Source: Daejeonella sp. H1SJ63 (GTDB taxonomy: Bacteria; Bacteroidota; Bacteroidia; Sphingobacteriales; Sphingobacteriaceae). Taken from it: 64,000 nt of DNA. Shown piece after piece: positions 6,564 through 30,100 of this stretch. The translations under genes and the position numbers were made by a program. Under the pieces are notes generated by a model. It had not been told where the DNA came from. It saw only the letters and a list, made by a program, of their open reading frames with translations, and searched no databases. Positions within the stretch are counted from its first letter, which is position 1, and the number at the start of each line of letters is the position of its first letter. The DNA lies in assembly GCF_029360775.1 (NCBI RefSeq), contig NZ_JARKMZ010000036.1, forward strand, positions 1-64,000, read 5' to 3'.

Positions 6564-6836
6564 ATGAGAAATTTATTTAGCTCAACAGTAATTTTAATTG
6601 TTTTGTTTTTTGCTGCATGCAGCAGTTCTGAGAAGCCTGTTTCTAAGGCTATCGACACTGTTTCTGCTCCTGTTTCGGCTTCTGTTTATACCTGTCCGAT
6701 GCACCCCGAAATTCAAAGTGATAAACCCGGTTCCTGCTCAATTTGTAAAATGGATCTTGTGGCTAAGACCGAAGGCAGTGCTCCGGCAGACTCAGCAGCT
6801 GCAGATACCGCTGCTCATGATTCAAATCAACACTAA
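6564..6836 (+). CDS. Lipoprotein with heavy-metal-binding domain (HMBD)
   Basis: A 90-residue lipoprotein with lipobox FFAAC (Cys19). The only domain is the short heavy-metal-binding module at about residues 42-68, with CPMHPEI and SICKMDLV, which provides Cys, Met and His ligands. The same module recurs at the N termini of the two adaptors encoded downstream. It ends five bases before the cusA-like start, so it is probably the first gene of the efflux operon. Inference: a free periplasmic metal-binding partner for the pump, comparable in role, not in fold, to CusF. Confidence 0.85.
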   Translation: MRNLFSSTVILIVLFFAACSSSEKPVSKAIDTVSAPVSASVYTCPMHPEIQSDKPGSCSICKMDLVAKTEGSAPADSAAADTAAHDSNQH

Positions 6837-6841
6837 GTCCA

Positions 6842-8146
6842 ATGGTTGAACAATTAATTTCATTCTCTTTACGCAACCGCTTCGTGGTTCTGCTTTTTGC
6901 AGCAGGAATATTTGCCTGGGGGATCTATTCAGTAAAAACAAGCAAGATAGATGCGATTCCTGACCTTTCAGAGAATCAGGTTATCGTGTTTACTGAATGG
7001 ATGGGCAGAAGTCCGCAGATCATAGAAGATCAGGTTACCTATCCATTGGTTACCAATCTTCAGGGTATGCCTCAGGTGAAGTATGTCAGGGCAAACTCCA
7101 TGTTCGGGATGAGCTTCATCTATGTCATTTTCGAAGATGATACGGATGTTTACTGGGCAAGATCGAGGGTACTTGAGCGTCTGAACTCGATCAGAAATGT
7201 ATTGCCTGAGGGTGTAAATCCTACTATCGGACCGGATGGCACAGGGGTGGGGCATGTTTTATGGTATACTCTGGATGCTCCCGGTATGGATCTGGGTGAG
7301 CAAAGGGCAGTACAGGACTGGTATGTTAAATTTGCTCTTCAAAACGTTCAGGGTGTGAGTGAAATCGCATCCTATGGTGGTTTTCAAAAGCAGTATCAGA
7401 TCAATATTGATCCCAATAAGTTAAGTTATTATAAACTGACGATTCAGGATGTGATGCGAACAGTTAAAAGTAATAATAATGAGGCCGGCGGGAGAAAATT
7501 TGAGATGAGCGGTATCGGATACATCATTAAAACTACCGGTTATCTTAAATCCATCCAGGAAATTGAGAATCTGTCTGTCAGAACACAAAATTCCATTCCT
7601 GTAAAAATCCGCGACATCGGAACAGTACAGATGGCCGGAGAAAGTCGTCTCGGCATCTTTGATTATAATGGTACCGGTGAAGTGGTTGGTGGTATCGTGG
7701 TACTTCGTTACGGTGAAAACGCAGATGAGGTAATCATGAAAGTAAAAGCCAAAATGCTCGACGTTGCCAAAGGTTTTCCTCAGGGAATGAAATTTAATAT
7801 TGTGTATGACAGGTCTGAGCTGATTGAAGAATCTGTATCCTCTATTAAAACCACCTTAATTGAGGAAATGATTGTGGTTTCTCTAATTGTAATTGCATTC
7901 CTGTTTCACTGGAGAAGTGCTGTGAGTATTATTATACAGATTCCAATTACCATAGCTGCGAGTTTTATTGTGCTGAATGCGTTTGATATATCGTCGAATA
8001 TCATGTCGCTCACAGGTATAGCACTTGCTATTGGCGTAATTGTCGATAACGGGATTATTATGGCCGAAAATTCTTATAAAAATCTTGCTGTAAGGCAGGC
8101 TGAGTTAAATGAACAAAGTAAAGGAGGGAATGCAGATGTGGAATAA
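6842..8146 (+). CDS. cusA: CusA-type heavy-metal RND pump, N-terminal half
   Basis: First part (434 residues) of an HME-family RND pump that exports Cu(I)/Ag(I) with protons. It holds TM1 (about 12-30), the first periplasmic porter loop, and TM2-TM4. The proton-relay Asp of TM4 is in the motif IGVIVDNGII. The frame stops at 8144-8146, just after TM4, in the cytoplasmic TM4-TM5 loop, where a Lys/Glu-rich linker begins. The second half is encoded in the +1 frame, with only 8109-8143 available for a frame change. Either the pump is made as two chains, or a single inserted base or a programmed shift separates the halves. Together they give about 1090 residues, near family length. Confidence 0.88.
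   Translation: MVEQLISFSLRNRFVVLLFAAGIFAWGIYSVKTSKIDAIPDLSENQVIVFTEWMGRSPQIIEDQVTYPLVTNLQGMPQVKYVRANSMFGMSFIYVIFEDDTDVYWARSRVLERLNSIRNVLPEGVNPTIGPDGTGVGHVLWYTLDAPGMDLGEQRAVQDWYVKFALQNVQGVSEIASYGGFQKQYQINIDPNKLSYYKLTIQDVMRTVKSNNNEAGGRKFEMSGIGYIIKTTGYLKSIQEIENLSVRTQNSIPVKIRDIGTVQMAGESRLGIFDYNGTGEVVGGIVVLRYGENADEVIMKVKAKMLDVAKGFPQGMKFNIVYDRSELIEESVSSIKTTLIEEMIVVSLIVIAFLFHWRSAVSIIIQIPITIAASFIVLNAFDISSNIMSLTGIALAIGVIVDNGIIMAENSYKNLAVRQAELNEQSKGGNADVE
8122..8127 (+). promoter_or_regulatory. Strong internal ribosome-binding site before the second cusA ORF
   Basis: A perfect AGGAGG lies inside the end of the first cusA ORF, eight bases before ATG at 8136 and two bases before ATG at 8130, both in frame with the second half. 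Strong Shine-Dalgarno sites are uncommon in this window, so its placement favours separate or coupled initiation of the second half. It could also act as a stimulator of +1 frameshifting. Confidence 0.6.
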
Positions 8147-10082
8147 GAAGAAATCTTCAGTTGATTCTGAAAAGAAAAAGGATTATGTCAGACTTTCGGA
8201 CGAAGAAAGACTGAGTATTATCGGGAAAGCGTGCAAACAGGTGTCGAGGGGGGTATTTTACTCAACGATTATCATTGTTGTATCTTTTTTACCGGTGTTT
8301 TTACTAAGCGGACAGGAGGGTAAGTTGTTCCATCCGCTGGCTTATACCAAAACATTTATTCTGATTATTGATGCCATTTTAGTGCTTACTCTGGCACCGG
8401 TGATCATTTCCTTTTTTATGAAGGGAAGATTCAGGCTGGAACATGAAAATCCGATTAACAGAGGTATGGAAAAGGTTTATCTTCCGGTAATCCGGGCCTG
8501 TATCCGTAACCGGAAAACAACTATCGGGGTTAATATTCTGGCATTGGTAATCAGTGTACCCATGATGATGAGCATGGGCCGTGAATTTATGCCGCCACTG
8601 GATGAGCAGTCGGTGCTTTTTATGCCTGTTACTTTACCCGATGTATCTAATACTGAGATCAAGAGAATTCTTCAGGTACAGGATAAGATTATTAAATCTG
8701 TTCCTGAAGTGGATCATGTACTGGGCAAAGCAGGCCGTGCCGGTTCGGCAACAGATAATTCTCCGATCAGTATGATTGAGACAATCATTTCCTTAAAGCC
8801 TAAATCAGAATGGCGTCCGGGAATAACAAAGAAAGATATTATTAATGAGTTAGATGCCAAATTACAGATACCGGGAGTGGTTAATGGCTGGACTCAGCCA
8901 ATCATTAACCGGATCAATATGCTTTCAACTGGTATTCGTACAGATGTTGGCGTAAAAGTTTATGGCCAGGATTTGAAGCAGATCAGCCATATTTCGCAGG
9001 ATGTACAGAAGATTCTTCAGCATATTGAGGGTGTAAAGGATCTTTATGTAGAACCGGTTTCGGGAGGTAAATATCTGGAAATTGATATTCAGCGCGATAA
9101 GCTGGAGCGTTATGGACTGAATGTAGATGATGTGAATGCCACGGTAGAAACAGCTATCGGAGGTACTCCTTTTGCATCAACAGTTGAGGGAAGAAAGCGC
9201 TTTAATATTCATCTGCGTTTAGGTGAGGATTACCGGAACAGTATCGATAAATTAAAGCGTATTCCTTTAAATTCTCCGGATGCAGGAACGATCCCATTAT
9301 CTGCGGTAACAGAGATACGTTTTGTGGATGGTCCGCCGATGATCACTTCAGATAATGCTATTCTGAGAGGAGCTGTAATGTTTAATGTCAGAGATCGCGA
9401 TCTGGGCCATACGGTTCAGGAAGCTATCGATAAGCTGAATAAGGACTTAAAATTGCCGAATGGTTATTTCGTAGAATGGAGCGGTCAATATGAGAATCTG
9501 ATGCGCGGGCAGAAAACCCTGCTTTACATCCTTCCGGTGGTATTGTTTGTTATCTTTTTAGCATTATATCTGGCATTTAAGTCGCTCAGGGAAGCATTTC
9601 TGAGTCTGATCACTATTCCTTTTGCATTGATTGGAGGGGCATATCTCGTCTATTTCTGGGGAGTTAACCTTTCAGTTGCAGTAGCGGTAGGTTTTATCGC
9701 ACTATTTGGTATAGCCGTAGAAACCGGGGTGGTTATGGTCATTTATCTGAATGATGCCATGCGTCAGCTGGTTGAGTTAAAGGGAAATTCAGGTGAGACC
9801 ATCACGAAGGAAGATCTGAAAGAATATGTCATTAACGGTGCGGCCAAACGTCTGAGGCCAAAGATTATGACGGTTTCTGTTGCCTTGTTCGGTTTGATAC
9901 CGGTCTTATGGTCGAGCGGAGTAGGTAGTGATGTGATGTTACCAATAGTACTTCCTATGATCGGTGGTGTACTGACTTCATCAACACATATCTTACTGGT
10001 AACACCATTAATCTTCCTGATGACTAAGGAATATGAATTGAAAAAATTTGGAAAACTGGAGGTGTACGATGTTAAGCATTAA
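8136..10082 (+). CDS. cusA: CusA-type heavy-metal RND pump, C-terminal half
   Basis: Second part of the pump (648 residues from this start): TM5-TM6, TM7, the second periplasmic porter loop and TM8-TM12. Key residues are present: the TM10 Glu in IAVETGVVM and the Lys in RLRPKIMTV, both used in proton transfer in CusA. Met residues in NSPISM and INRINM fall where the CusA cleft has metal-binding methionines (my alignment by eye). The start at 8136 is chosen for the AGGAGG eight bases upstream; 8130 and 8109 are alternatives in the same frame. The overlap with the first half suggests translational coupling. The last 14 bases overlap the TolC-like gene. Confidence 0.88.
   Translation: MWNKKKSSVDSEKKKDYVRLSDEERLSIIGKACKQVSRGVFYSTIIIVVSFLPVFLLSGQEGKLFHPLAYTKTFILIIDAILVLTLAPVIISFFMKGRFRLEHENPINRGMEKVYLPVIRACIRNRKTTIGVNILALVISVPMMMSMGREFMPPLDEQSVLFMPVTLPDVSNTEIKRILQVQDKIIKSVPEVDHVLGKAGRAGSATDNSPISMIETIISLKPKSEWRPGITKKDIINELDAKLQIPGVVNGWTQPIINRINMLSTGIRTDVGVKVYGQDLKQISHISQDVQKILQHIEGVKDLYVEPVSGGKYLEIDIQRDKLERYGLNVDDVNATVETAIGGTPFASTVEGRKRFNIHLRLGEDYRNSIDKLKRIPLNSPDAGTIPLSAVTEIRFVDGPPMITSDNAILRGAVMFNVRDRDLGHTVQEAIDKLNKDLKLPNGYFVEWSGQYENLMRGQKTLLYILPVVLFVIFLALYLAFKSLREAFLSLITIPFALIGGAYLVYFWGVNLSVAVAVGFIALFGIAVETGVVMVIYLNDAMRQLVELKGNSGETITKEDLKEYVINGAAKRLRPKIMTVSVALFGLIPVLWSSGVGSDVMLPIVLPMIGGVLTSSTHILLVTPLIFLMTKEYELKKFGKLEVYDVKH
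10058..10062 (+). promoter_or_regulatory. Ribosome-binding site that decides the TolC-type start
   Basis: GGAGG lies six bases before ATG 10069, inside the end of the pump gene. It favours 10069 over the in-frame ATG at 10048, and only the 10069 start puts the signal peptide at the N terminus. Confidence 0.6.
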
Positions 10083-11316
10083 AATGAGACTGTTGCCGGT
10101 ATTGTTATTCTGTTCGCTGAATAGCTTTGCTCAGCAGCCTTTGAGTCTGGAACAGATATTTAAGGAGATCAGTGAAAATAATCCGGCATTAAAGGCTTAT
10201 GATAGCCGTATTCAAAGTAAAGATGCCAAAGTTGAAGGTGCAGGAGCATGGATGGCTCCGATGGTCGGGGTAGGCACCTTTATGAGTCCTTATCCTTTTC
10301 AGGGTAAGATTTCAGATAATGATAAAGGAGCATTTATGTTCAGTGCTGAGCAGGAAATACCTAATCCTGCCAAAATTAAAGCCAGAAAGGATTATCTAAG
10401 CACTCAATCGCTGACCGATGTTTATGGTAAAAGCGTACGCTTCAATGAGCTGAGGGCAAAAGCGAGAGAACTATATTTCGGATTGCTTATTGATTACAGG
10501 AAGATCAGCTTTCAGAGAGAAAATCAGCAGATTATGGAAGCTATGAAGAAGCTTGCTGAAATCCGTTTTCCTTTTAATCAGGGGGGACTGAATCAGATTT
10601 TTAAAGCTGAAGGCCGTACTTATGAAGCAGAGAATATGATTCTGATGACTGATGCAGATATCCGTTCTAAGAAAATTGCCCTGAATGCATTGATGAACAG
10701 AATGCCCGGATCTGTGATTGAAATTGATACCGCATTAAAGGTCAGCTTTAATCCTAAAGCAGATCTGGACACAGCGTATTTTGCGGGAACCAGAAGTGAT
10801 ATTCTTCATATGGAGCATGATATCCATGCCATGGAGAAGAATATCAATCAGATGCGCCAGGAAAACAAGCCTGATTTTAAGATCCGTTTTGACCATATGT
10901 CTAACTATTCTGCTATGATGCCAAGGCAGTTTACAGTGATGGGCATGTTGTCCATTCCTATTGTTCCATGGTCGCAGAAAATGTATAAATCAGAGATCAA
11001 ATCAATGAATTTTGAGCGGGAGGCAATGCGTCAGCAAAAATCAGCAATGCTGACCGAGATGCTGGGTATGACTAAGTCTATGGAAAATGAGCTAATCACG
11101 ATGCAGAAGCAGATCAGTAATTATGAGAATAAGATCCTGCCCTCACTTGAGAAATATCTCAAAGTTTCTATGTTGTCTTATCAGGAAAACAAATCTGATC
11201 TGAATACTGTAATTGATGGATGGGAAGCATTAAACATGTCGCAAATGAATTATCTGGAGCAATTACAAAAGTTTTACCAAATGGTCACAGCATATGAAAA
11301 AAATATTGAAAGGTAG
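10069..11316 (+). CDS. TolC-family outer membrane efflux channel (CusC-type)
   Basis: Outer-membrane factor of 415 residues that would form the exit duct for the CusA-type pump. A signal peptide (MRLLPVLLFCSLNSFAQ) is followed by the usual TolC N-terminal phrase LSLEQIFKEISENNPAL, then two long helical/coiled-coil repeats typical of the family. It has no lipobox, unlike E. coli CusC. Residues are rich in Met and charged amino acids in the second helical hairpin. The start overlaps the pump gene by 14 bases, and the end overlaps the next adaptor by 23 bases, so these genes are translated together. Confidence 0.88.
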   Translation: MLSIKMRLLPVLLFCSLNSFAQQPLSLEQIFKEISENNPALKAYDSRIQSKDAKVEGAGAWMAPMVGVGTFMSPYPFQGKISDNDKGAFMFSAEQEIPNPAKIKARKDYLSTQSLTDVYGKSVRFNELRAKARELYFGLLIDYRKISFQRENQQIMEAMKKLAEIRFPFNQGGLNQIFKAEGRTYEAENMILMTDADIRSKKIALNALMNRMPGSVIEIDTALKVSFNPKADLDTAYFAGTRSDILHMEHDIHAMEKNINQMRQENKPDFKIRFDHMSNYSAMMPRQFTVMGMLSIPIVPWSQKMYKSEIKSMNFEREAMRQQKSAMLTEMLGMTKSMENELITMQKQISNYENKILPSLEKYLKVSMLSYQENKSDLNTVIDGWEALNMSQMNYLEQLQKFYQMVTAYEKNIER

Positions 11317-12613
11317 TATCGTGCTTTTTCTTGTTCTGGGATTCATTCTGGCAGGATGTAATTCAAATGAGAAATCGGAGCAGGTTTCGGTGAAGTATAC
11401 CTGCCCGATGCATCCGGAGATTCTGAAGGATGGTCCCGGGACTTGTCCGATCTGCAAAATGGATCTGGTTCCTTTGGATCATCATGACGGACATGCGGCT
11501 GCAGACGAAAGTCTGAATGCACTGGTAAGACCAGCAAATGAGTACATAATTTCAGGAATAAGAACCGTAAGGCCTGAGAAAGGGTTTAAAAGCACTGAAT
11601 TAAGTATGAAAGGTATTATCAACTATAATACCAATAACTGGAGATCTTTATCAGCAAGAGTTAGCGGACGTATAGAGCGATTGTACGTTAAATACAATTA
11701 TCAAATGGTTAGTAAAGGCCAGAAGATTATGGACATCTATAGTCCTGATCTGGCTAATGCCCAACAGGAATTATTGTTCCTGAAATCAAATGCTGATGCC
11801 GGACTGCTTGAATCGGCAAAGAAGAAATTACTGTATCTGGGGATGAATAGTGCTCAGATTGATCAGGTGCTTAACACAGGTAAGATCAGCTACACGATCT
11901 CTGTTTATAGTCCTTATTCAGGATATGTGGCAGAATTGAATTTAAATGCAGGATCAAACCAGGGAAGTTCAAATGCTGCGGGAGCCACAAGGATCAGTTC
12001 ATCTGGGTCATCAGGGATGAATTCAATGTCTTCGGGTTCATCTGCAGATGCCGTCCCAGAAATTCCTGTCATTAATACCGGTCAGGCGTTTCAACTCAGG
12101 GAAGGACAATATGTTTCGGCCGGTCAGAACTTATTTAATCTGATCAATGCCAATCAGGTTTGGGCAGAATTTTATGTGAACCCTGAATTGCTCGACGAGT
12201 TTAAACCAGGTAGTAAGATTGATGTCAGTGCGCTGGATATCCCGGATCAAAAGTCGGAGAGCAGTGTGAGTTTGATCCAACCTTATTACAACGAAGGCCA
12301 GAACTATTCATTGGTTAAAGCGAATTTGATGAATGAAAATAAGAAATGGAAGGTTGGGCAACTGATTACTGTGAAAAGAGAAGCGAGGGCAGAAGGTTTT
12401 TGGTTACCGAGAACCGCTTTGCTCAGACTGGGAGAAAAATATGCAGTATTCGTTAAAAAGGGTGATGCATTTGTTCCTGTTTATGTCACTTTAAAGAGGC
12501 ATACAGATAAATGGGTTGATGTCGGAACGAGTATTGCTGAAGATCAGGAGCTTGCTTTAAATGCATGGTTTCTTGTTGATAGTGAGAGTTTTATTAAAGC
12601 AGAACGGTTATGA
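11294..12613 (+). CDS. cusB: RND periplasmic adaptor with N-terminal HMBD (CusB-type, first copy)
   Basis: Membrane-fusion lipoprotein of 439 residues (lipobox ending at Cys22) linking pump and outer-membrane channel. Order: HMBD at about 35-62 (CPMHPEI ... CPICKMDLV), a linker with HHDGH, barrel-sandwich and helical-hairpin regions (about 95-215), then beta-barrel and membrane-proximal regions. A Ser/Met-rich low-complexity insert at about residues 232-254 interrupts the barrel-sandwich return strand and is unusual; its methionines could bind Cu(I), but this is only a guess. The start overlaps the TolC-like gene and the end overlaps the second adaptor by four bases. Confidence 0.88.
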   Translation: MKKILKGSIVLFLVLGFILAGCNSNEKSEQVSVKYTCPMHPEILKDGPGTCPICKMDLVPLDHHDGHAAADESLNALVRPANEYIISGIRTVRPEKGFKSTELSMKGIINYNTNNWRSLSARVSGRIERLYVKYNYQMVSKGQKIMDIYSPDLANAQQELLFLKSNADAGLLESAKKKLLYLGMNSAQIDQVLNTGKISYTISVYSPYSGYVAELNLNAGSNQGSSNAAGATRISSSGSSGMNSMSSGSSADAVPEIPVINTGQAFQLREGQYVSAGQNLFNLINANQVWAEFYVNPELLDEFKPGSKIDVSALDIPDQKSESSVSLIQPYYNEGQNYSLVKANLMNENKKWKVGQLITVKREARAEGFWLPRTALLRLGEKYAVFVKKGDAFVPVYVTLKRHTDKWVDVGTSIAEDQELALNAWFLVDSESFIKAERL

Positions 12614-13827
12614 TTAAAAATAAAGTATTATCAGGGTTAATTTTTTTATTTCTGGGTTTTACTGTACTTGAATTAAGTTCATGCACTCAGGATAAAGGGA
12701 GTAAAAACGCTTCTCCGGAAAAGTATACCTGTCCGATGCATCCTCAGATTATGAATAACGGACCGGGGACTTGTCCGATTTGTAAAATGGATCTGGTTCC
12801 GGTAAATGCTTCAGGCGGGAAGAATGAGCTTACCCTGAGCGATAGTCAGATTCAACTGGCCAATGTCCGGACAATAAAGATCAGCAGTTCAGGTTTCAGT
12901 ACATCCAAAGTGTTGAATGGGCGCCTTATCGTAGATGAAGATCGTACTGAGATGATTTCAAGCCTTTATTCCGGCCGGGTAGATCGTTTGTTCATTAAAG
13001 AAACAGGGCGCCCAGTTGCTAAAGGACAGGCATTGTTTCAGATTTATAGTGAGCAGCTTCAAACACTTCAGCAGGATTATCTGCTTCAGCTGAAACAGGT
13101 TGCAGCATTTCCTTCAGAAAAGATCTATCAGTCGATGAGGGATGCCGCTAAAAATAAGCTTCGTTTGTTTGGATATACAGAGGCTCAGATCAAGGTATTG
13201 AATCAGGGAAGCAACTTAAAACCCTTGTTAACGGTTTACTCTAAATCGTCGGGTATTGTAAAAGAACTTAATATTACTGAAGGGCAATACCTTTCGGAAG
13301 GAAGTCCGGTAATGAAATTAGAAAGTTTGGATCAGCTTTGGCTTGAAATGGATATTTATCCTTCTGAGATATCCGATATTAAGATCGGAACAAAGATTAA
13401 GTTTAGCCTGAACGGGCGCAGTGGAGATGAACAAACCGCTGTGGTGGATTTTATTTCTCCTCAGATGGATCCTGCTACTCAAATCCTGAAAGTAAGAGCT
13501 CCGGTAAGGAATTCAGGAGACATGCAGCCGGGTATGCAGGCTACTGTGTTTTTGCCGCAGACTGAAATTGCGAGTGCAGTAAGTCTACCCCTTGATGCAG
13601 TTGTGAGGGATGAAACGGGAGCTCATGTATGGGTTAAAACCGGAAAAAATACCTTCTCGCCAAGAATGGTTCGTACCGGTGAAGAAGATTCAGAAAGAGT
13701 GATTATCCTTTCGGGGCTTGAAAATGTTCAGGAGGCGGTAGTAAGTGGTGCGTATTTACTTTCCAGTGAATTTATATTGAAAAAAGGGTCCGACCTGATG
13801 TCGGGGCACGACATGAGTAAAATGTAA
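12610..13827 (+). CDS. cusB: RND periplasmic adaptor with N-terminal HMBD (CusB-type, second copy)
   Basis: A second, divergent adaptor lipoprotein of 405 residues (lipobox LSSC, Cys25). It has the same layout as the preceding gene: HMBD at about 39-66, barrel-sandwich with helical hairpin, beta-barrel, membrane-proximal domain. It lacks the Ser/Met-rich insert of the first copy and ends with HDMSKM. The ATGA overlap with the first adaptor shows tight coupling. Two non-identical adaptors beside one pump may form a mixed adaptor ring, or one may serve another step. The 42-base gap to the CopB-like ATPase leaves room for continued transcription. Confidence 0.88.
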   Translation: MIKNKVLSGLIFLFLGFTVLELSSCTQDKGSKNASPEKYTCPMHPQIMNNGPGTCPICKMDLVPVNASGGKNELTLSDSQIQLANVRTIKISSSGFSTSKVLNGRLIVDEDRTEMISSLYSGRVDRLFIKETGRPVAKGQALFQIYSEQLQTLQQDYLLQLKQVAAFPSEKIYQSMRDAAKNKLRLFGYTEAQIKVLNQGSNLKPLLTVYSKSSGIVKELNITEGQYLSEGSPVMKLESLDQLWLEMDIYPSEISDIKIGTKIKFSLNGRSGDEQTAVVDFISPQMDPATQILKVRAPVRNSGDMQPGMQATVFLPQTEIASAVSLPLDAVVRDETGAHVWVKTGKNTFSPRMVRTGEEDSERVIILSGLENVQEAVVSGAYLLSSEFILKKGSDLMSGHDMSKM

Positions 13828-13869: not shown

Positions 13870-15912
13870 ATGGAACACCATCATCACGGGCATGTTCATT
13901 CTCCGGATGAGCATGGTAATCATTCTCCTGAAACAAAGAACAAACAGGCAGCACCTCCTGCAATTGATGCGCATGCCGGCCATCATACCTCAGATTTTTT
14001 AAAGCGCTTCTGGATATGCCTTATCCTTACGGTTCCGGTTTTGCTTCTTTCAGAAATGATCCAGCATTGGTTTGGGTTTCATCTTGAATTTCAGGGAGAT
14101 AAGTTCGTATTGTTAGGGATCAGTCTAATTCTCTTCATTTATGGTGGGAAGCCCTTTCTGATCGGGATGTCGCGCGAAATAAAGCAGGCAAATCCGGGAA
14201 TGATGACCCTGATCGGTATTGCGATACTTGTAGCATTTATCTACAGCGCTTCGGTTATTTTTGGTTTGAAGGGGATGGATTTCTTTTGGGAACTGGCTAC
14301 CCTGATAGATATCATGTTGCTGGGACATTATTTTGAGATGCGTTCTCAGCATGCAGCTTCCCGTGCTTTGGAAACTCTGGTAGAGTTACTTCCGTCAGAT
14401 GTGCACGTAGAACGAAAGGGAATAGTTGTTGATATTTCATTGAAAGAACTCCGGAACGGTGATGTTATTCTGATCAAACCCGGAGAGAAAATCCCTGCCG
14501 ATGGGGCGATCATTAGCGGACACTCAATGGTTAATGAAAGCATGCTTACCGGAGAAAGTATTCCGGTTCACAAACAAAGTGATGACAAAGTTATAGGTGG
14601 CTCCATTAATGGCGAGGGTTCGATTAAAGTACTGGTTACCGGAACCGGTGAAGAAAGTTACCTCAATAAGGTAATTAATATGGTAGAGGGTGCTCAGTCT
14701 GCTAAATCCAGAACACAGAATCTGGCTAATAAAGTGGCTAAATGGCTCACGTATATATCGTTGAGTATTGGAATAATAACTTTTTTATTCTGGTTTAGTA
14801 AAGATGGAGATCTTGCTTTTGCATTGGAAAGAATGGTTACGGTGATGGTTACTTCTTGTCCTCATGCGCTCGGAGTAGCTATTCCTCTGGTTGTGGCAAT
14901 TTCTACTTCTCAGGCCGCTATTAATGGCCTGCTGATTAGGAACAGAACAGCATTTGAAACTTCAAGAAAGCTAAGCCTTATTATTTTTGATAAAACCGGA
15001 ACCCTGACTGAAGGCTCTCACAGAATACAGCGTATTGTTGTTTTAGATAATAATTATTCAGAAAATGATATTCTTCAATATGCTGCCGCTTTACAGCAGG
15101 ATTCTGAACATTATATTGCTAAAGGTGTAAAGAAATCATTAGAGCTTAAGAAGCTCGAACTATGGTCTTCGGCTGAATTTGAATATCTTCCGGGGATTGG
15201 TGTTAAAGGAAAGGTAAAAGGTAGGCAGGTGATAGCTGCCGGACCGAATTATTTCAGGAAAGAGAATATGCCGGTTCCGGAAATTCCTGCAGAAATTAAT
15301 CAGGCATCTGAAACTGTTAATTTTTTAATTGTTGATGGAAAAGCTGCCGGAATAATCACCCTGTCAGATACTATCAGGCCATCATCGAAAGCAGCTATCG
15401 AAGACCTTAAATCAATGGGAATTAAATCCTATCTTCTTACCGGAGATAACGAACATGTGGCTAAATCTGTTGCTGATACTCTGGGAATGGACGGCTTTTT
15501 AGCTAATGTATTACCCGATCAGAAGCAGCAGAAGGTATTAGAGTTTCAGCAGAAGGGCGAGATCGTGGCTATGACCGGTGACGGTGTAAATGATGCACCT
15601 GCACTTGCACAGGCTGATGTTGGTATTGCAGTTGGCTCAGGTACCGATGTGGCTGCTGAAACAGCTGATATATTGCTTGTTAACAGTGATCCTCAGGATA
15701 TTGTTAACATTATCAGATTTGGCAGGGCTACTTATAAAAAGATGATTCAAAATTTAATCTGGGCAGTTGGTTATAACGTCATTGCAATTCCTTTGGCTGC
15801 CGGGGTTTTATATCCCAACTTTTTGCTAAGTCCGGCTACTGGTGCTGTATTAATGAGTATAAGCACAATAATCGTGGCAGTTAATGCTCAGTTATTAAAA
15901 CGAAGCCTTTAA
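13870..15912 (+). CDS. copB: CopB-like P1B-3 copper-exporting ATPase (CPH type)
   Basis: P-type ATPase of 680 residues that moves copper out of the cytoplasm. The N terminus is His-rich (EHHHHGHVH, then HAGHH) with no HMA domain. The metal-site motif is Cys330-Pro331-His332 in TM6, diagnostic of the P1B-3 group. The phosphorylation site is Asp374 in DKTGT, the actuator motif is TGES, and the hinge motif GDGVNDAP is present. The nucleotide-binding motif normally read SEHP is SEHY here, keeping the His but losing the Pro. It lies between the RND operon and the HMA-AraC regulator on the same strand. Confidence 0.92.
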   Translation: MEHHHHGHVHSPDEHGNHSPETKNKQAAPPAIDAHAGHHTSDFLKRFWICLILTVPVLLLSEMIQHWFGFHLEFQGDKFVLLGISLILFIYGGKPFLIGMSREIKQANPGMMTLIGIAILVAFIYSASVIFGLKGMDFFWELATLIDIMLLGHYFEMRSQHAASRALETLVELLPSDVHVERKGIVVDISLKELRNGDVILIKPGEKIPADGAIISGHSMVNESMLTGESIPVHKQSDDKVIGGSINGEGSIKVLVTGTGEESYLNKVINMVEGAQSAKSRTQNLANKVAKWLTYISLSIGIITFLFWFSKDGDLAFALERMVTVMVTSCPHALGVAIPLVVAISTSQAAINGLLIRNRTAFETSRKLSLIIFDKTGTLTEGSHRIQRIVVLDNNYSENDILQYAAALQQDSEHYIAKGVKKSLELKKLELWSSAEFEYLPGIGVKGKVKGRQVIAAGPNYFRKENMPVPEIPAEINQASETVNFLIVDGKAAGIITLSDTIRPSSKAAIEDLKSMGIKSYLLTGDNEHVAKSVADTLGMDGFLANVLPDQKQQKVLEFQQKGEIVAMTGDGVNDAPALAQADVGIAVGSGTDVAAETADILLVNSDPQDIVNIIRFGRATYKKMIQNLIWAVGYNVIAIPLAAGVLYPNFLLSPATGAVLMSISTIIVAVNAQLLKRSL

Positions 15913-21150: not shown

Positions 21151-24100
21151 TCAACGTTTCAGGATCATATATCCTTTGTTCATAGAGGTTATTTTCTGGC
21201 CGTTAACCGTACGTTTGGTTGTGATCAGATAATAATAAACTCCATCTACAAGCGGACTGTTGGTATTTGACAGAAGACCGGTATTGGCAAAGCCTTTGAA
21301 TACTCTGTCGCTTTCATTATAGCCGTTAATTTTAAATACCTGATTGCCCCATCTGTTGAATATTAATACTTCATTATCAGGGAAGGAAATTATATTGTCA
21401 ATTTTAAAGAAATCATTGCCAATTCCGTCGTCATTAGGTGATAATAGAGGATCCGGACGGATATCATTATTAGCCGGAAGATTATTATTCAATGTCGCCG
21501 GATCTGTATCGACCGGAGGGTAAATGTCAAGAATGTTAACGACGGCTCCGGTACCAATTCTTACCAGGGGATCGGAAGTGGATGAAATACTAATATTGAT
21601 ATTTTCTGTTCCTTCCTTTTCATCATCTGTAAGGGCTGCAATAGTAATTTTCTGAGTAGTCGTTATTTTTCCTTTAGGTATTCGTATTTCCCGATATTGA
21701 TCCAGAAGTGCGTAATCCCGATTATTTGTTGCAGTTCCTTTGTAGGCTATTCTTATGGTAACATCACTTCTGAAAGGACGAATCAGTCTGGCTGTAACTG
21801 CAGTTTTCCTGCCTTCAGAAACACTGCTTTGTGCCGGTGTCAGATTGACAATGGTATTCGGAATGACATCAATAATCAGCTTGGCTGTTTCACACATACC
21901 TGTAGTATTGCAAACACGATAAGTTACAGTCTCAATTCCCCAGAATCCTACATTTGGGGTATAGGTAAATTGTCCTTCACTGTTAAAGCTGATCGTTCCA
22001 TTCTGAGCAGTAGAAATTAATGTAAAGCTGATCGCTTCCTTTTCGCGGTCATAATCGTTTAATGCCACACTACCTGATACAGGTATTTCTTCGTCAGTTT
22101 TGAATAAGTCATTTACAGCAACCGGAGGGCAATTTCCAGCCATTACTTCACCGGAAATACTGAGGGTACAGCCTTTAGCATCAGTAACCAGAAGTTCATA
22201 AACTCCGGGTTTAAGGTTGTTGATGGTATTCTCTTTACTTGCAATACCTTTCCATATCAGATTGTAAGGTTTAGTTCCACCTGTAATTTCAGCGGTAATT
22301 GTACCATCAACAGATGATTTACAAATGGTATTCCTGACATTTAGAGTAGCTTTTAATATTTCAGGTTCAGCAATATTTATAATCTGTATTGCACTACAAC
22401 CGTTTGCATCAATTACGGTTAATGCATAAGAAATATTTGGAGCAAGGTTTTGCAGGTCTTCAGAAGTTTGGTTGTTTGACCATTTAAAGCTGTAAGGCAA
22501 AACACCACCCGTTACCTTGACATCAATACTGCCATCCTTACCTCCAAAACAACTAACATCGGTTTTGGTATAAGAGATTTTGATTGGTGCAGCCGGCTGT
22601 TTAATGGTGATTGATTCAGTATAGCTGCAGCCTTTAGAATCTGTAATCGTCAGGGTATAGGTACCTGCTGTAAGATTTTTTAAATCTCTTGTGATTTGTC
22701 CATTTGACCAGCGATAAGTATAAGGAGCAGTACCGCCTTCAGGGGTAGTATTGATGGAACCTGTATTATCACCATAACAGGATACATCGGTAAGGATATA
22801 TTTCAGACTTATCGGACTTTCAGGCTGGCTAATTAAGATATCAGGTGCGATCAAAGTGATACATTCCGGATATTGCGCATCTCTTACATATACCTGATAA
22901 GTGCCCGATGCCAGGCCACTGAACTTTTTATTGCTTTGCCAGGTTTTACCTCTGTCAATACTATATTCATAAGTCCCGAATCCTCCGGTAACCGTACCCA
23001 CCTGAATTGCTCCGGTATTTTCGCCGTAGCAATTAATATCAATACTTGTTGCAGTTGCCTTGATAGCGGCAGACGGTTGAACAATGGTTGCAGTTCCTGT
23101 TCCGGTATTGGTACAGGAAAGGCCATCAGAAACTGAAAGTATTTTATAAGTTCTGGTAGAATCTGAAGTGACGTTGAATGTAAAGTTGCTGTTTCCTATG
23201 CGGGAAATGGTTACCGGAGTTTTTCCGTCAGTATAGGTAATTGTCCATGGAGCCAACCCTGTAAGTTTTACATTCAGCGTACTTGTAGATCCATAACATG
23301 CCGTTTTTCCTCCACTGATTGTGGCAGTTGGCAATGGATGAATTATAATTGTGTATTTACTTGCAGGTCCGGCACAACCATCATAGGTAGGTATAATGGT
23401 ATAAGTAATGGTATCAGGAACAGACTTAGTATTGATAAGGGTCTGCACCGGAATTTTGTTTGTACCCCGTATCGCATAGCCTTCCAATCCGGAAGGTGCA
23501 TCTGATGTCCATGTAAAACTGGTGCCCGGAATATCTGATGTTAGTAAAACCTCTTTTGAATTTGATCCGGTACATAGCGATTGACTTAATGAAGTATTGC
23601 TTAATCTTGGAAGTGGTTTTACCGAAATAGTGAAGCTTGAAGAAGGTCCCTGGCATCCATTCAAAATAGGTGTTACAGTAATTATTGATTGAATAATGCT
23701 CGTTGATTTATTGGCGGCAGTGAACACCGGAATTTCTCCGCTGCCACTGGCTGCAAGACCAATGGATAGATTTGAGCCGGTCCAGGTATAAGTAGTTCCC
23801 GGAGTATTGCTGCTAAAGTTTATTACTGAAGATTTAGTTCCTGCACAGAGAATCAGATCTGCAGGTACAATCACTCTTGGGGTTGGATTAATTGTAATGG
23901 TAAAGTTATGCTCAGGTCCCTGACATCCATCTAAAGTCGGAACAACAGTAATAACTGCGGTAATAGGCAGATCGGTATTATTGATTGCATTAAATGAAGG
24001 AACATTACCGGTACCACTGGCTGGCAGTCCAATTTCAGGTCTTGAATTAGTCCATGTGATTGTAGCTCCGGGAGGTGTACTGTAAAAATAGCTTTCCGGT

Positions 24101-27100
24101 ATCGCAGCTCCATTACAGTAAGTCAAACTTTCAGGAACAACCAGAGCAGGTGCCGGATTGATTTTTACTTCAAATACTCTGGCAATACTTACGCAGGAGT
24201 TCAGCATTGCTGTTACTGCATAGTTCCCAGACATTGAAGGGTCTGAATTGGGACGCGTTACAGATGGGCCAATGGCTGTAAAGCCTTTTGGTCCTACCCA
24301 TTTATATGTTATCTGAGGATCAGGATTCAAAACGGAAAGAACCAAGGGTTCTCCCGCACAAATCGGACTATACGTATTGACAGATGGTGAAGGAGGTGCT
24401 CCGGGACTTGAAATAGATAATATTGGACCAATAGCCAGACATCCGTTTGAATTCCTTACTACCACAGGGTAACTTCCTGCCTCCAGACCGGTAAAATTAC
24501 CCCCATTCTGAACAAAAGTATTTCCACCATCAACAGAATATTCTAAAGGTTGGGTACCGCTTGCAGTGATCGTGATTGTTCCGTCTTTGATGTTACAGAT
24601 TGTTTCATTAGTTGCAATTGCTGCTGAAATGATTGGTAATGGATTGACCGTAATGCTATAACTTATTGCTTCACCCTTGCATCCGTTAACTGTAGGTATT
24701 ACGGTAATGACCGCGGTTATTACTGAACCTGTTAAATTTGCGGCCTTAAAACTTGGAACATTTCCGGTTCCACTTGCTGCCAGTCCTATTGCCGTATTCG
24801 AATTTGTCCAACTGTAACTGGTTCCACTAATGTTGCTTGTGAAATTACTTGAAGGAACAATCTCATCAGCACAAATAACTGAACTGGCCGGCACTTTAAT
24901 TACCGGCAAGGGATTAACGGTGATTGTATAGGTATAAGTTTTTCCGGTACATCCGTTTAAAGTCGGAGTTATGGTAATGATTGCAATAATTGGCAGATTG
25001 GTATTATTTGTAGCGACAAATGCAGGAATATTTCCGCTGCCACCTGCAGCCAGGCCGATCTCAGGTCTTGAGTTTGTCCAGGTGAAGTTTGCACCCGATG
25101 GAGTACTACTCAATATGTTCTCAGGAATAGGAACTCCCTTGCAATAGGTTTGATTTTGTGGAACAGTTAAAGTTGGGAGCGGGCTAACTACAATATCAAA
25201 TGAGTGTGAATCACTTACGCAGGAGTTAAGCGTAGCTGTTACCGCATAAGTTCCAGACATTGAAGGGTCTGAATCAGGACGTGTGATGGATGCACCGATA
25301 GCTTTAAAACCCAAAGGTCCGGTCCATGTATATATCGCCAACGGATTGGGATTCTTCACAGAAAGAATCAGAGTGGTACCTTCGCAAACCGGATTAGCAT
25401 AAGTATTAACCGATGGAGGAGGAGGAGCGTCAGGACTGGAAACAGATAATGTAGGTCCGGAAATAATACAACCACCTGCATTGCGAACCATTACGGAATA
25501 GCTACCTGCAGGTAAGCCTGTAAAATTACCATTATTACGAATAAAAGTACTTCCTCCATCAATCGAGTATTCCAATGGCTGCATTCCGGATGCAGAAATT
25601 ATAATAGTTCCATCTTTAAAATCACACTGAGATTCGGCGGTTGCAACCGCTGATGTAATTACCGGAAGAGGATTTATAGTTATGGTATATTTAACTGGTG
25701 TTCCGGAGCATCCATTTAAAACAGGAGTTACTGTTATGGTAGCTGAAACCGCAAAAACGGATGAGTTAAGCGCAGTAAAACTTGGAACGTTGCCTGTTCC
25801 GCTCGCCGCCAGTCCGATTGCCGTATTCGAATTTGTCCATCGGTAGGTAGTACCCTGAATATTACTGGTAAAATTGCTTGATTCTATGATTTCTCCTGCA
25901 CAAACGATGGAGTTGCTTATACCACTGATTATAGGCTGAGGATTGATGGTAATGGTATATGTTTTTGCAGGACCTGCACATCCATTCAGTCTTGGAACTA
26001 CGGTAATGGTTGCTGTTATTGGTGAGGAAGTATTATTTACAGCGGTAAAGCTGGGCACATTGCCTGTGCCATTTGCAGGCAGCCCGATTGATGTATTGGA
26101 ATTGGTCCAGGTAAAGCTGGCGCCTGCAGGAGTGCTTCCGAAGTTTTGTGCAGATACTGTTGCTCCTGCACATATAATAAAGCTTCCCGGAACAATTACT
26201 TCAGGTAGGGGATTTATGGTGATGGTATAGCTTGAACTTGGCCCAGCACAACCGTTAAGAGTTGGAGTAACAGTTATCGTAGTGCTGATTGGAGCAGAGG
26301 TGTAATTTATTGCAGTAAATGCAGGTAGATTTCCACTGCCGCTGGCCGCCAGTCCGATTGAGGTATTGGAGTTGGTCCAGGTAAAGGTGGTGCCGGCTGA
26401 GCTGCTGCTGAAGGCAGTAATATCTACTGATGTTCCGGCACAGAGTGTATAGTCGATGGGTACATTTACTTTAGGTAAAGGGTTTACAGTAATGGTATAG
26501 GTAACAGAGGGTCCGCTGCATCCGTTAAAGTATGGAGTTACGGTAATATTTGAACTGATACTTGCAGTGCCGTTATTGATAGCGGTAAAAGAAGGTACGT
26601 TTCCACTGCCGCTTGAGGCCAGTCCTATTGCCGTATTGGAATTGGTCCATGTGTAGGTAGCTCCGGCAGGGGTACTGATAAAATTGCTTGCCGGTATTGT
26701 TGCACCTGAACATACGTTCTGATTAGCAATTGCTGAAATAACCGGTAATGGATTAACTGTAATGGTAAAGCTGACAGCCGGTCCTGTACACCCGTTTAAT
26801 ACCGGAGTAATTGTAATTGTTGCGGTTATTGTTGCTGATGTGGTATTAACCGCTGTAAATGTCGGCATATCACCGGATCCACTGGCCGGCAGTCCAATGG
26901 CAGTATTGGAGTTGGTCCAGGTGTAGGTTGCTCCTGCAGGGGTACTGGTAAAGCTGCTAATCGGGATTGTTGCACCTGCACAATAGGTCATATTTGCTGG
27001 TACTGTAGCAATTGGCAACGGTTTTACGGCTATTGCAATGATCTTTGCAGCACTTACACAAGAACCAATCCGTGCCGTTACGGCATAATTGCCTGACATG

Positions 27101-30100
27101 GAAGGTGCTACGTTTGTTCTTGAAATACTTGTTCCTGTAGCAGTAAATCCTAAAGGTCCGGTCCAGGTATAGGTTGCCAGAGGATTCGGATTCTGTACAG
27201 ACAAGACGATGGTGCTGCCTTCGCAGGTCGAAGAAGTATAAGGATTAAGGGCAGGCATTGGTGGTGCACCCGGACTGGAGATAGATAAAATTGGTCCGGC
27301 GATCACACATCCAGAAGCATTTCTTACCATCACAGAATAACTGCCGGCAGCTAATCTTGTAAAGGAGCCGTCATTTTGAATAAATGTACTTCCTCCATCG
27401 ATAGAATATTCAAGCGGAGCAGCCCCTGAAGCTTTGATGGTTATACTTCCGTCTGCAGCGTCGCAAACTGTCTCATTTACGGCCACAGCAGAATTGATCA
27501 CCGGTTGAGGGTTGATCGTTATAGTATATGATGACGGAGGCCCGGTACATCCGTTGATAGAAGGGGTTACAGTAATGGTTGTTGTAACAGGCGATGTTGC
27601 GGTATTCACAGCGGTGAAGCTGGGTACATTCCCTGTTCCGCTTGCCGCCAGTCCGATGGTGCTATTGGAATTGGTCCAGGTATAGGTAGCGCCTGCCGGA
27701 CTGCTGCTGAAACTGGAAGAGCTGACCGTTGCTCCGGCACATACAGTAAATCCTGACGGCAGGTTTACAATGGGTTGTGGACTCGCTGTTATTGTATAAG
27801 AAGAAGGGAGCCCTGCACAACCATTAAGGTACGGTGTTACAATAATTGTTGCACTGATACTGTTTGTTCCTGAATTAACAGCTGTGAAAGATGGTACATT
27901 TCCGGTACCACTTGCTGCCAGTCCGATAGCAGTGTTGGAGTTGGTCCAGGTATAGGTAACCCCTGCCGAACTGCTGCTGAAGTTAGATGCGGCCACATTA
28001 GCTCCACCACAAACGGTGAAATTATCAGGCACATTCACCCTCGGTAAGGGATTGACAGTAATGGTATAGGTAGTCGGAGGTCCGGTACAGCCATTAAAAT
28101 AAGGTGTAACAGTAATTGTTGCACTGATACTGCCGGTTCCTGAATTAATTGCTGTGAATGATGGAAGATTTCCGCTTCCAGCCGCCGCCAGTCCGATTGC
28201 GGTATTGGAGTTGGTCCAGGTAAAGGTAGCACCGGGTTGATTACTGCTAAATATCGGAGAACCTACCATTATCCCTGAACAAACAGCAAAGCTTGCAGGT
28301 ACAGAAACTGTAATTTGCGGGTTTACTGTAATGGTATAGGAAGACGCTGGCCCAGCACAACCATTCAGAATAGGTGTTACCGTAATTGTTGCAGTAACAG
28401 GTGCCGATGAATTATTCGCTGCAGTGAAGCTGGGAACATTTCCTGTTCCGCTTGCTGCCAGCCCGATAGCCGTATTGGAATTGGTCCAGGTGTAGGTTGC
28501 GCCAGCAGGAGTACTTGCAAAACTGCTGATCGGAACCGTTGTACCTGCACAATAGAGCATGTTGGATGGTAAGGTAACTACAGGCAGGGGACTAACTATT
28601 AATGAAATAACTTTTGCACCACTTACGCAGGAACCGATACTTGCCGTTACTGCATAATCTCCTGACATTGATGGATTGGCATAAGGTCTGGAGATACTTG
28701 TCCCGGTAGCAGTAAATCCTAATGGTCCGGTCCAGTTATAGGTTGCCAGCGGGTTTGGATTTTGTATAGATAAAACTAAAGTACTTCCTTCACAAACCGG
28801 AGATGTAAACGGGGTAATAGTAGGGATTGGTGGTGCTCCCGGACTGGATACAGACAAAGTTGGTCCTATCAGTATACATCCATTGGCATTCCGTACTCTT
28901 ACTGCATAGCTTCCTGCCATTAAACCGGTGAATTTTCCACCATTCTGAAGATATGTACTTCCACCGTCAATTGAATATTCCAGCGGGCCGGCTCCGGTGG
29001 CTGATATGGTTATTTTTCCATCACTTGCATCACAAAACGTTTCATTAACCACTACGGCAGAACTTAGCTGAGGATATGGATTAATCGTAATGGTGTATGA
29101 AGATGGTGGCCCCGCACAGCCATTCAGGTAAGGTATTACTGTAATAGTTGCAGTTTGAGGTGATGCGGTATTGTTTAAAGCAGTAAAGCTGGGCACATTA
29201 CCTGCTCCACTTGCAGCCAGCCCTATAGAAGTGTTCGAATTAACCCAGGTAAAGGTAGCACCGGCCGGACTGCTGCTAAAGTTTGAAGGTGAAATTGTTT
29301 CACCCGCACATACCGTAAAGTTGTTAGGCAGGATAACGGCTGGTTGTGGATTAACGGTTATCGTAAAACTTGAGCTCGGACCTACACATCCATTGAGGGT
29401 GGGGGTTACGGTTATGATAGAACTGATAGAAGCAGTAGTATTGTTTACAGGGGTAAAGGCAGGTAAATTCCCTGTTCCGCTTGCTGCCAGTCCTATGGCA
29501 GTATTTGAATTAGTCCAGCTATAAGTTGCTCCGCCCGGTATACTGCTGAATGTTTTTGCCGTTGTTAAAGTTCCTGCACAGACCGAATAATCGGCAGGAA
29601 CATTTACTTTAGGTAAAGGATTTACTGTAATAGTATAGGTGGTTGATGGTCCGGTACATCCGTTAACTGTTGGGATTACAGTAATAGTTGCACTGATACT
29701 TGTGTTACCCGTATTTACAGCAGTAAAAGAAGGTACGTTTCCACTTCCGCTCGAAGTCAGTCCTATTGCAGTATTGGAATTTGTCCAGGTATAAGTAGCT
29801 CCGGCAGGGGTGCTGCTGAAATTACTTGCCGGTATCGTTGTACCTACACAGAAACTCTGATTTGCAGGTACTGAAACAACAGGAAGAGGGTTAACCGTAA
29901 TGGTATAACTTGCTGTCGGGCCGGTACAACCATTAAGTTTAGGGGTTATTGTGATTGTTGCAGTAATCGGTGCTGATGTGGTGTTAACCGCTGTAAATGT
30001 TGGCATATCGCCTGAACCGCTTGCTGCCAGTCCGATGGCTGTATTAGAATTGGTCCAGGTGTAAGTTGCTCCTGCAGGGGTGCTGGTGAAGCTTCCAACC

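Follow-up and report, generated by a model that had tools for sequence, protein, structure and literature searches.

A CusA-type permease of a likely Cu(I)/Ag(I) efflux system in Daejeonella sp. H1SJ63 is, judging from its sequence and those of its relatives, very probably built from two polypeptides, encoded by two genes, that re-associate into a working pump. In the 64,000-nucleotide stretch of DNA analysed (hereafter the window), the permease is found not as the one ORF of a single-chain RND protein but as two overlapping ORFs on the forward strand (6842–8146 and 8109–10082), and the ORF list and translations confirmed the +1 offset of their frames given in the original prediction. The two genes are conserved and separately started, dN is low in both, and the key residues of the pump are divided between the two chains.

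Architecture of the split permease

The first gene, cusA-N (6842–8146, + strand), encodes chain N of 434 aa, which comprises TM1–TM4 and the first periplasmic loop and corresponds to positions 1–430 of TIGR00914 and residues 8–427 of the CusA chain in the PDB. The second gene, cusA-C (8136–10082, + strand), encodes chain C of 648 aa, which comprises TM5–TM12 and the second periplasmic loop and corresponds to TIGR00914 positions 425–1036 and CusA residues 436–1042. The ORF of cusA-C gives 657 aa when counted from its first ATG at 8109. This ATG was rejected as the chain C start in favor of ATG 8136, the likely start, whose position is conserved in close kin and often followed by Trp. The overlap of the two genes is then 11 nt rather than 38 nt, from the start codon of chain C (8136–8138) to the stop codon TAA of chain N (8144–8146). 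Alignment with E. coli CusA and its helix limits showed that chain N ends just past TM4 and that chain C begins in the TM4–TM5 loop; the break thus falls in the predicted cytoplasmic loop.

Together the chains cover the whole length of the family models. Of the 1021 positions of Pfam PF00873 (ACR_tran), 2–423 match chain N and 416–1019 match chain C. TIGR00914 is the best-scoring model for both chains; scored apart, they reached 454.0 and 623.2 bits, each below the curated cut-off of 701.45, and we therefore term the protein a split variant rather than a standard CusA/CzcA member. Modeled singly with AlphaFold, the chains gave structures too poor for use (pLDDT 62 for chain N and 48 for chain C), the input for each chain being an 18-row alignment of the window and 17 sequences picked from 56 listed references.

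The proton relay of CusA/CzcA proteins is kept over both halves, as had been predicted. By alignment, D402 of chain N (codon 8045–8047) corresponds to D405 of CusA, and E529 (9720–9722) and K576 (9861–9863) of chain C correspond to E939 and K984, respectively; all three are invariant in the 18 aligned rows per chain. Chain C also carries the methionine triad of the Cu/Ag site, M163 (8622–8624), M213 (8772–8774), and M262 (8919–8921), equivalent to M573, M623, and M672 as read by eye from the alignment with CusA and invariant in 18 chains. Together with E215, the likewise invariant counterpart of E625, the triad is as expected for the CusA (Cu/Ag) subgroup. In the transmembrane methionine relay, M391, M410, and M1009 of E. 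coli CusA are kept, and M403, M486, and M501 are replaced with isoleucine, leucine, and isoleucine, respectively. The roles of D405 and of the triad with E625 in CusA are described in PMC8092243.

The neighboring genes, all on the + strand, are those of a CusCBA cluster, in which an outer membrane factor and adaptors accompany the permease. Just upstream of cusA-N lies the end of a small ORF (6603–6836) with a heavy-metal-binding domain (HMBD; Pfam PF19335, E = 1.6e-16 over 6603–6833). Downstream are a cusC/TolC-type outer membrane factor (10069–11316, Pfam OEP), whose start overlaps cusA-C by 14 nt and is preceded by a GGAGGTG motif, two CusB-type adaptors (11294–12613 and 12610–13827, each with Pfam HlyD_D23 and HMBD), and an adjoining P-type ATPase (13870–15912, Pfam E1-E2_ATPase), which is likely to be for copper. 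The order is identical on three plasmids.

Conservation of the split and of both chains

The original prediction had called for a comparison of cusA orthologs and named a continuous frame in relatives as a refutation. The result was the opposite: of the 80 named close relatives, the cut lies in this loop in 76, and four have a fused gene. When the threshold was raised, L075, one of the 76, which lies at the end of a contig, had no N match. Counted as distinct loci, 119 of 138 are split; 51 loci of the initial set were put aside, mostly as duplicates but also as short hits or loci without an N hit. The frame of chain C relative to that of chain N is +1 in 67 of the 119 split loci, +2 in 40, and the same frame behind a stop in 12. 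This count omits duplicates and seven rows without an upstream N hit, namely L069's second copy, L072, and L075, which lie close to the end of a contig or locus, and four rows from two genomes with C first. Those two genomes have the reversed layout C-tolC-cusB-cusB-N, and in five loci unrelated ORFs lie between the halves. Loci L166 and L169 were considered as lacking the N half, which a whole-genome search located downstream. Three complete plasmids carry the split pair, annotated as two adjacent permease CDS. The occurrence of the split in so many relatives indicates that the gene is not broken and that two parts apparently suffice to make such a pump.

Neither chain shows signs of decay, in agreement with the prediction. 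Against nine relatives, dN was 0.065–0.13 in both chains; dN/dS was 0.022–0.032 in the four of 18 comparisons in which dS was computable, dS being saturated in the other 14. Chain N is 434 aa long in all 10 loci compared for dN. The distances of chain N and chain C were correlated (r = 0.95, 117 rows), as would also be expected of merely linked genes. In the comparison listing 56 references, 11 of 118 rows were unmeasured, and four long-branch rows were left out of one comparison.

Probable start of chain C

The sequence AGGAGG (8122–8127, + strand), a Shine-Dalgarno (SD) motif within the end of cusA-N, lies 8 nt before ATG 8136, at the predicted spacing. The accompanying claim that such motifs are rare elsewhere in the window was confirmed: of 42 ORFs with 150 aa or more, 37 lack a strong SD at the first ATG. 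The string AGGAGG-N4-10-ATG is present five times over both strands, so that by itself it is within chance, and the weight lies on its retention in relatives. In the window's subclade, 27 of 33 loci have an SD of 5 nt or more before the chain C start (28 of 33 at 4 nt or more), a descriptive, unplanned count since the subclade was picked after viewing the tree and the SD list. Such a match of at least 5 nt is found at only 3 of 85 chain C starts beyond the subclade and at 3 of 117 chain N starts; pooling all split loci (30 of 118) masked the subclade signal. Control ORFs, each read from its first ATG, gave 52 of 411, a loose control that includes spurious ORFs. Gly occurs within the last nine chain N codons in 27 rows, and the first such codon is GGA in 25 of them, against a GGA use of 32% in the same ORFs. 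Of 32 subclade loci, 27 have a similar SD-like motif before the tolC start (for the remaining five, the scan picked an ATG 47–50 nt upstream), but KLEV residues may force the sequence there.

The called chain C starts lie close to the chain N stop, between −23 and +60 nt in 108 of 118 and between −23 and +12 nt in 105 of 118, a start-near-stop arrangement as in coupled gene pairs; no start was obtained for L095. Overlaps longer than 4 nt reportedly couple less efficiently (PMC12548453), and Bacteroidia ribosomes reportedly do not recognize SD sequences (PMC9976891).

Proposed two-chain pump and its alternatives

From these observations we infer translational coupling, re-association, trimer formation, and transport; most likely, the chains would be co-translated and re-associate as a CusA trimer of six chains. 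Chain N would supply TM1–TM4 and the first periplasmic loop, and chain C would supply TM5–TM12 and the second. A ribosome ending chain N at TAA 8144 may re-start at ATG 8136, or a second ribosome may start there, positioned in either case by AGGAGG 8122–8127. The chains would then re-associate in the inner membrane, the newly created termini facing the cytoplasm, and would restore the proton relay from D of chain N and E and K of chain C; three N–C pairs would form the usual trimer, docking on CusB and CusC. Weighing against this model are the three replaced relay methionines, the absence of an SD at most chain C starts outside the subclade, the reports on overlap length and SD recognition cited above, and the fused copies nested among the split ones.

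The +1 offset might instead reflect a programmed ribosomal frameshift within 8109–8143 that yields one full-length CusA. The window and its closest kin do show this offset with an SD-like motif upstream, as in prfB-type shifts. The spacing of the motif, however, fits the ATG, and no prfB-like slippery codon before the chain N stop was seen by eye in the terminal codons inspected. A programmed shift would entail a fixed frame relation and an uninterrupted gene in relatives, whereas 52 of the 119 split loci are not +1, five have unrelated genes between the halves, and two genomes have C before N. These observations exclude the shift for the family, and we regard it as highly improbable. The same three observations and the complete plasmids also rule out, for the family, a normal cusA that differs by one base, be it through faulty sequencing or through a recent indel that inactivated the gene. 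A purine-rich run at this position, AAAGGAGGGAA, could favor such an event, but the identical split in many separately sequenced species, the low dN and dN/dS, and the exact length of chain N in 10 loci leave it a negligible probability.

If the two chains are indeed made, they might act separately, for example as oligomers of their own or with one regulating the other. The two genomes in which the genes lie apart and reversed, where expression levels may differ, are in line with this idea. Neither chain alone, however, contains the full proton relay; the genes share a cluster with CusB and CusC types, the divergence of the chains is correlated, and fused copies exist inside the clade. Separate action is therefore improbable, though less so than the two preceding explanations, and the re-associated pump is preferred.

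How the split arose is a separate question. On the tree, all split copies fall within one Bacteroidota clade, in which some fused copies are nested, indicating that the split is not essential. A tree forcing the split rows together was rejected (p-AU = 6.7e-61, 61 chosen rows), and the fewest changes on the tree were six, five of them forced, with fused outgroups. Several independent fissions at one loop, a history compatible with the two-chain explanation, would account for the interleaving of split and fused copies and for the short loops of eight nested fused copies (22–27 aa), which resemble the 21-aa loops of two outgroup copies (loops were read in 10 of 19 fused rows). One fission followed by about five fusions is nevertheless the shortest account, and some nested fused loops (e.g., L099) retain an RYAELN stretch like the tail of chain N; repeated fission is thus the less likely history, albeit one of appreciable probability.

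Tentatively, and with considerable doubt, we suggest that the whole clade has a stable RND permease of two chains, divided next to the cytosolic entrance for the metal, which may allow the ratio and assembly of the chains to be regulated. In the Sphingobacteriaceae group, chain C might start from a working SD used by terminating ribosomes, in a class thought to ignore SD sequences. The conserved AGGAGG at an overlapping start offers a direct test of SD pairing by Bacteroidia ribosomes in re-initiation.

Comparison with known systems

In tripartite RND drug and metal pumps the permease is usually depicted as a single chain, and no split heavy-metal RND permease was described in the literature searched by title and abstract, in which subscription journals were thinly covered. 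That a split form persists over a large Bacteroidota clade reveals a position at which the fold can be interrupted, and natural two-part pumps should be useful for assembly studies. The split also explains why automated annotation yields pairs of "permease subunit" entries as if there were two pumps.

Gene pairs that overlap or abut and are coupled by termination-reinitiation have a stop and a start a few nucleotides apart and often encode subunits of one complex (PMC10666635, PMC12548453, and PMC3711429). The present pair differs in that it makes up a single membrane protein whose break lies inside a Pfam domain, and in having AGGAGG in a class reported to ignore SD sequences (PMC9976891).

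The closest known relative considered is CusA of E. coli, the HME-RND permease of CusCBA (TIGR00914), which is homologous over nearly its full length via both chains and shares the proton-relay D/E/K, the Cu/Ag Met triad, and a cluster of the CusB/CusC type. It is one chain of about 1,050 aa, in contrast to the two chains here, and three of its six transmembrane relay methionines are replaced here. E. coli has one CusB, whereas two tandem HMBD-bearing adaptors are present here.

SecD and SecF of the RND superfamily are two chains in most bacteria. They likewise demonstrate that an RND-fold machine is possible as two polypeptides (PMC8277102). SecD/SecF differ, however, in function and in being cut between the two 6-TM repeats; the cut in the present permease follows TM4, so that TM5 and TM6 of the first repeat sit in chain C.

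Results

The permease gene lies on the forward strand as two overlapping ORFs, cusA-N (6842–8146; chain N, 434 aa) and cusA-C (8109–10082; chain C, best start ATG 8136), the latter in the +1 frame relative to the former. In the heavy-metal RND model TIGR00914, chain N matched positions 1–430 (454.0 bits) and chain C positions 425–1036 (623.2 bits). Each score is under the curated cut-off of 701.45 bits, which may be why both chains carry the generic annotation "efflux RND transporter permease subunit". When aligned to E. coli CusA, chain N reaches just past TM4 and chain C begins in the next loop; the ORFs and this alignment bear out the original prediction of a +1 frame change in the loop after TM4. 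The contig is 144 kb long, of which the window covers 64 kb, in a genome of 3.65 Mb and 56 contigs. Daejeonella and other Sphingobacteriaceae are among the closest named relatives in the matches listed.

The same split was sought in orthologues and is shared, at the same loop, by 76 of the 80 named loci listed, out of 569 confirmed stretches; the frame is continuous in four (L088, L099, L101, and L103). A family survey of 201 genomes (E ≤ 1e-200) matched 78 genomes in 87 rows, with an open frame of 637–735 aa in 84, fused length in two (genomes G214 and G151), and a frame broken by TGA in one (G026). A phylum survey matched 58 of 395 genomes, with frames of 638–728 aa in 24 and 1,031–1,100 aa in 34 (row count); in these surveys, length by itself is no proof of an adjoining N half, which is provided by the analysed loci. 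Removal of duplicates left 138 loci with an N and a C half, 119 of them split and 19 fused. In Mucilaginibacter robiniae, Hymenobacter, and Adhaeribacter, complete plasmids are annotated with two adjoining permease CDSs ahead of TolC and adaptors.

The window's genome holds a second split pair (G000:C33:141607-144763; L002, L181), whose chain C is about 55% identical, with further TolC- and adaptor-sized ORFs behind it. The TGA in the single-contig genome G026 lies inside chain C (G026:C1:2299675-2301575, L033), which may reflect either decay or another split. At G000:C21:532936-534747 and in many relatives, CusA-like open frames reach about 1,450 aa, exceeding CusA by some 400 aa; they are possibly fused to a TolC-type protein.

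The original prediction had offered a programmed +1 shift or a one-base insertion as alternatives to two chains. Relative to chain N, the frame of chain C in the 119 split loci is +1 in 67, +2 in 40, and unchanged, with a stop in between, in 12, so that 52 are not +1. The C start lies −23 to +12 nt from the N stop in 105 of the 118 loci where it was called, and at a larger distance in 13. Three Spirosoma-group loci have a methyltransferase-like ORF between cusA-N and cusA-C (L073 by Pfam, L092 by 80% identity to L073, and L116 by eye); L117 has a different methyltransferase there (Pfam), with no significant similarity to the L073 type (E 0.49), and L098 a 23S rRNA-IVP-type ORF (Pfam). Genomes G407 and G423 carry the cluster as C-tolC-cusB-cusB-N, the intervening genes being named from sequence by eye, and N lies about 3.6–3.9 kb behind C. 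A frameshift yielding one product across frames was rejected on these mixed frame relations, unrelated intervening ORFs, and C-first order; two cistrons are the sole reading found to fit all three together. As separate observations, L079 and L084, near kin of the Spirosoma-group loci, are without the methyltransferase-like ORF, and the window encodes a small protein of the same Pfam family as the L098 ORF at 2495–2857 (−).

Both chains look constrained at the sequence level. Against nine relatives, dN was 0.065–0.13 for both chains, and dN/dS was 0.022–0.032 in the four of 18 comparisons with computable dS (one for chain N, three for chain C), dS being saturated in the other 14. Chain N is 434 aa long in 10 of 10 loci compared. 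The low dN and constant length agree with the earlier view that the gene is not visibly decaying. The pairwise distances of chain N correlate with those of chain C (r 0.95, 117 rows), as expected for linked genes and partners alike.

Transport by E. coli CusA requires D405, E939, and K984, and Cu(I) is bound by M573, M623, and M672 with E625 (available text of PMC8092243). The proton-relay residues are, as predicted, kept across both halves: D402 in chain N, and E529 and K576 in chain C. This division of the relay argues that the chains would have to join. The copper ligands correspond to M163, M213, M262, and E215, all in chain C. M410, which sits at the cytosolic entrance, has a conserved counterpart in M407 close to the chain N end, but its partner M501 is I91; in total, three of the six CusA relay methionines are replaced. 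The cluster comprises an HMBD protein, both CusA chains, a TolC-type protein, two HMBD adaptors, and, behind these, a pair of P-type ATPases flanking an AraC-type regulator; this composition fits putative copper or silver export. The adaptors are CusB-type, in tandem at 11294–13827, with a heavy-metal-binding domain in each. Elsewhere in the window, a 3,669-aa ORF (21151–32160, −) has PKD-like, SprB, and Ig-type repeats and a CHU_C type IX secretion signal.

Discussion

A quick C-half tree of 138 rows, for which the program gave a long-branch warning, placed all 119 split rows inside one 127-row clade (SH-aLRT 98) with eight fused rows, and six split/fused changes were needed, five forced by starred branches. 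A second tree, with four long rows left out and the two C-first rows added, needed five changes; the C-first rows paired (99) near fused L031, with a weak support of 62. A more careful tree, built from 61 selected rows, rejected a single split clade without fused copies (p-AU 6.7e-61). Given fused outgroups, the shortest account is one fission and about five re-fusions; several separate fissions are a less likely alternative. In the 107 measurable split loci, the N tail after TM4 has a median length of 19 aa and the C leader one of 26 aa (median sum 45), versus a loop of 21–27 aa in ten fused copies. The leader has an aromatic residue among its first 12 in 87 of the 107, and a median charge of +3 with its last ten residues excluded and only +1 across its first 20.

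The AGGAGG at 8122–8127 (+), a candidate Shine-Dalgarno (SD) motif, stands eight nt upstream of ATG 8136, as originally read. Its claimed scarcity holds at ORF starts, no SD match being found at the first ATG of 37 of the 42 window ORFs of at least 150 aa, though AGGAGG-N4-10-ATG occurs five times on both strands together, so that the string alone is within chance. The C start has an SD match of 5 nt or more in 27 of 33 loci of the subclade (the tree group holding the window, picked after the tree and SD list were viewed) versus 3 of 85 split loci outside and 3 of 117 chain N starts. Within the subclade, N and C overlap by 11 nt in 22 loci and by 8 nt in six; outside, many C starts lie just beyond the N stop or at −4 nt. 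The first Gly codon in the last nine chain N codons is GGA in 25 of 27 Gly-holding loci, which are related and not independent draws, against a 32% share of GGA among all Gly codons of these ORFs; L020 does not follow this pattern, nor does L098, and in L098 the C start is 952 nt away. Translational coupling is reportedly most efficient at −4 to +3 nt and drops as overlap lengthens (excerpt of PMC12548453), so the SD motif may offset the longer overlap seen in the subclade. SD sequences are reportedly not recognised by Bacteroidia ribosomes, rpsU being the main exception (accessible part of PMC9976891). The tolC start at 10069 overlaps cusA-C by 14 nt with a GGAGGTG motif upstream; 27 of 32 subclade loci have a comparable motif, which the KLEV residues may force.

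SecD/SecF is cut between its repeats, whereas the CusA of the window is cut after TM4. A literature search, mostly of non-subscription journals, turned up no description of a split heavy-metal RND permease. Two-chain RND machines, represented by SecD/SecF (available text of PMC8277102), are already known, and conserved pairs of coupled genes are familiar as well.
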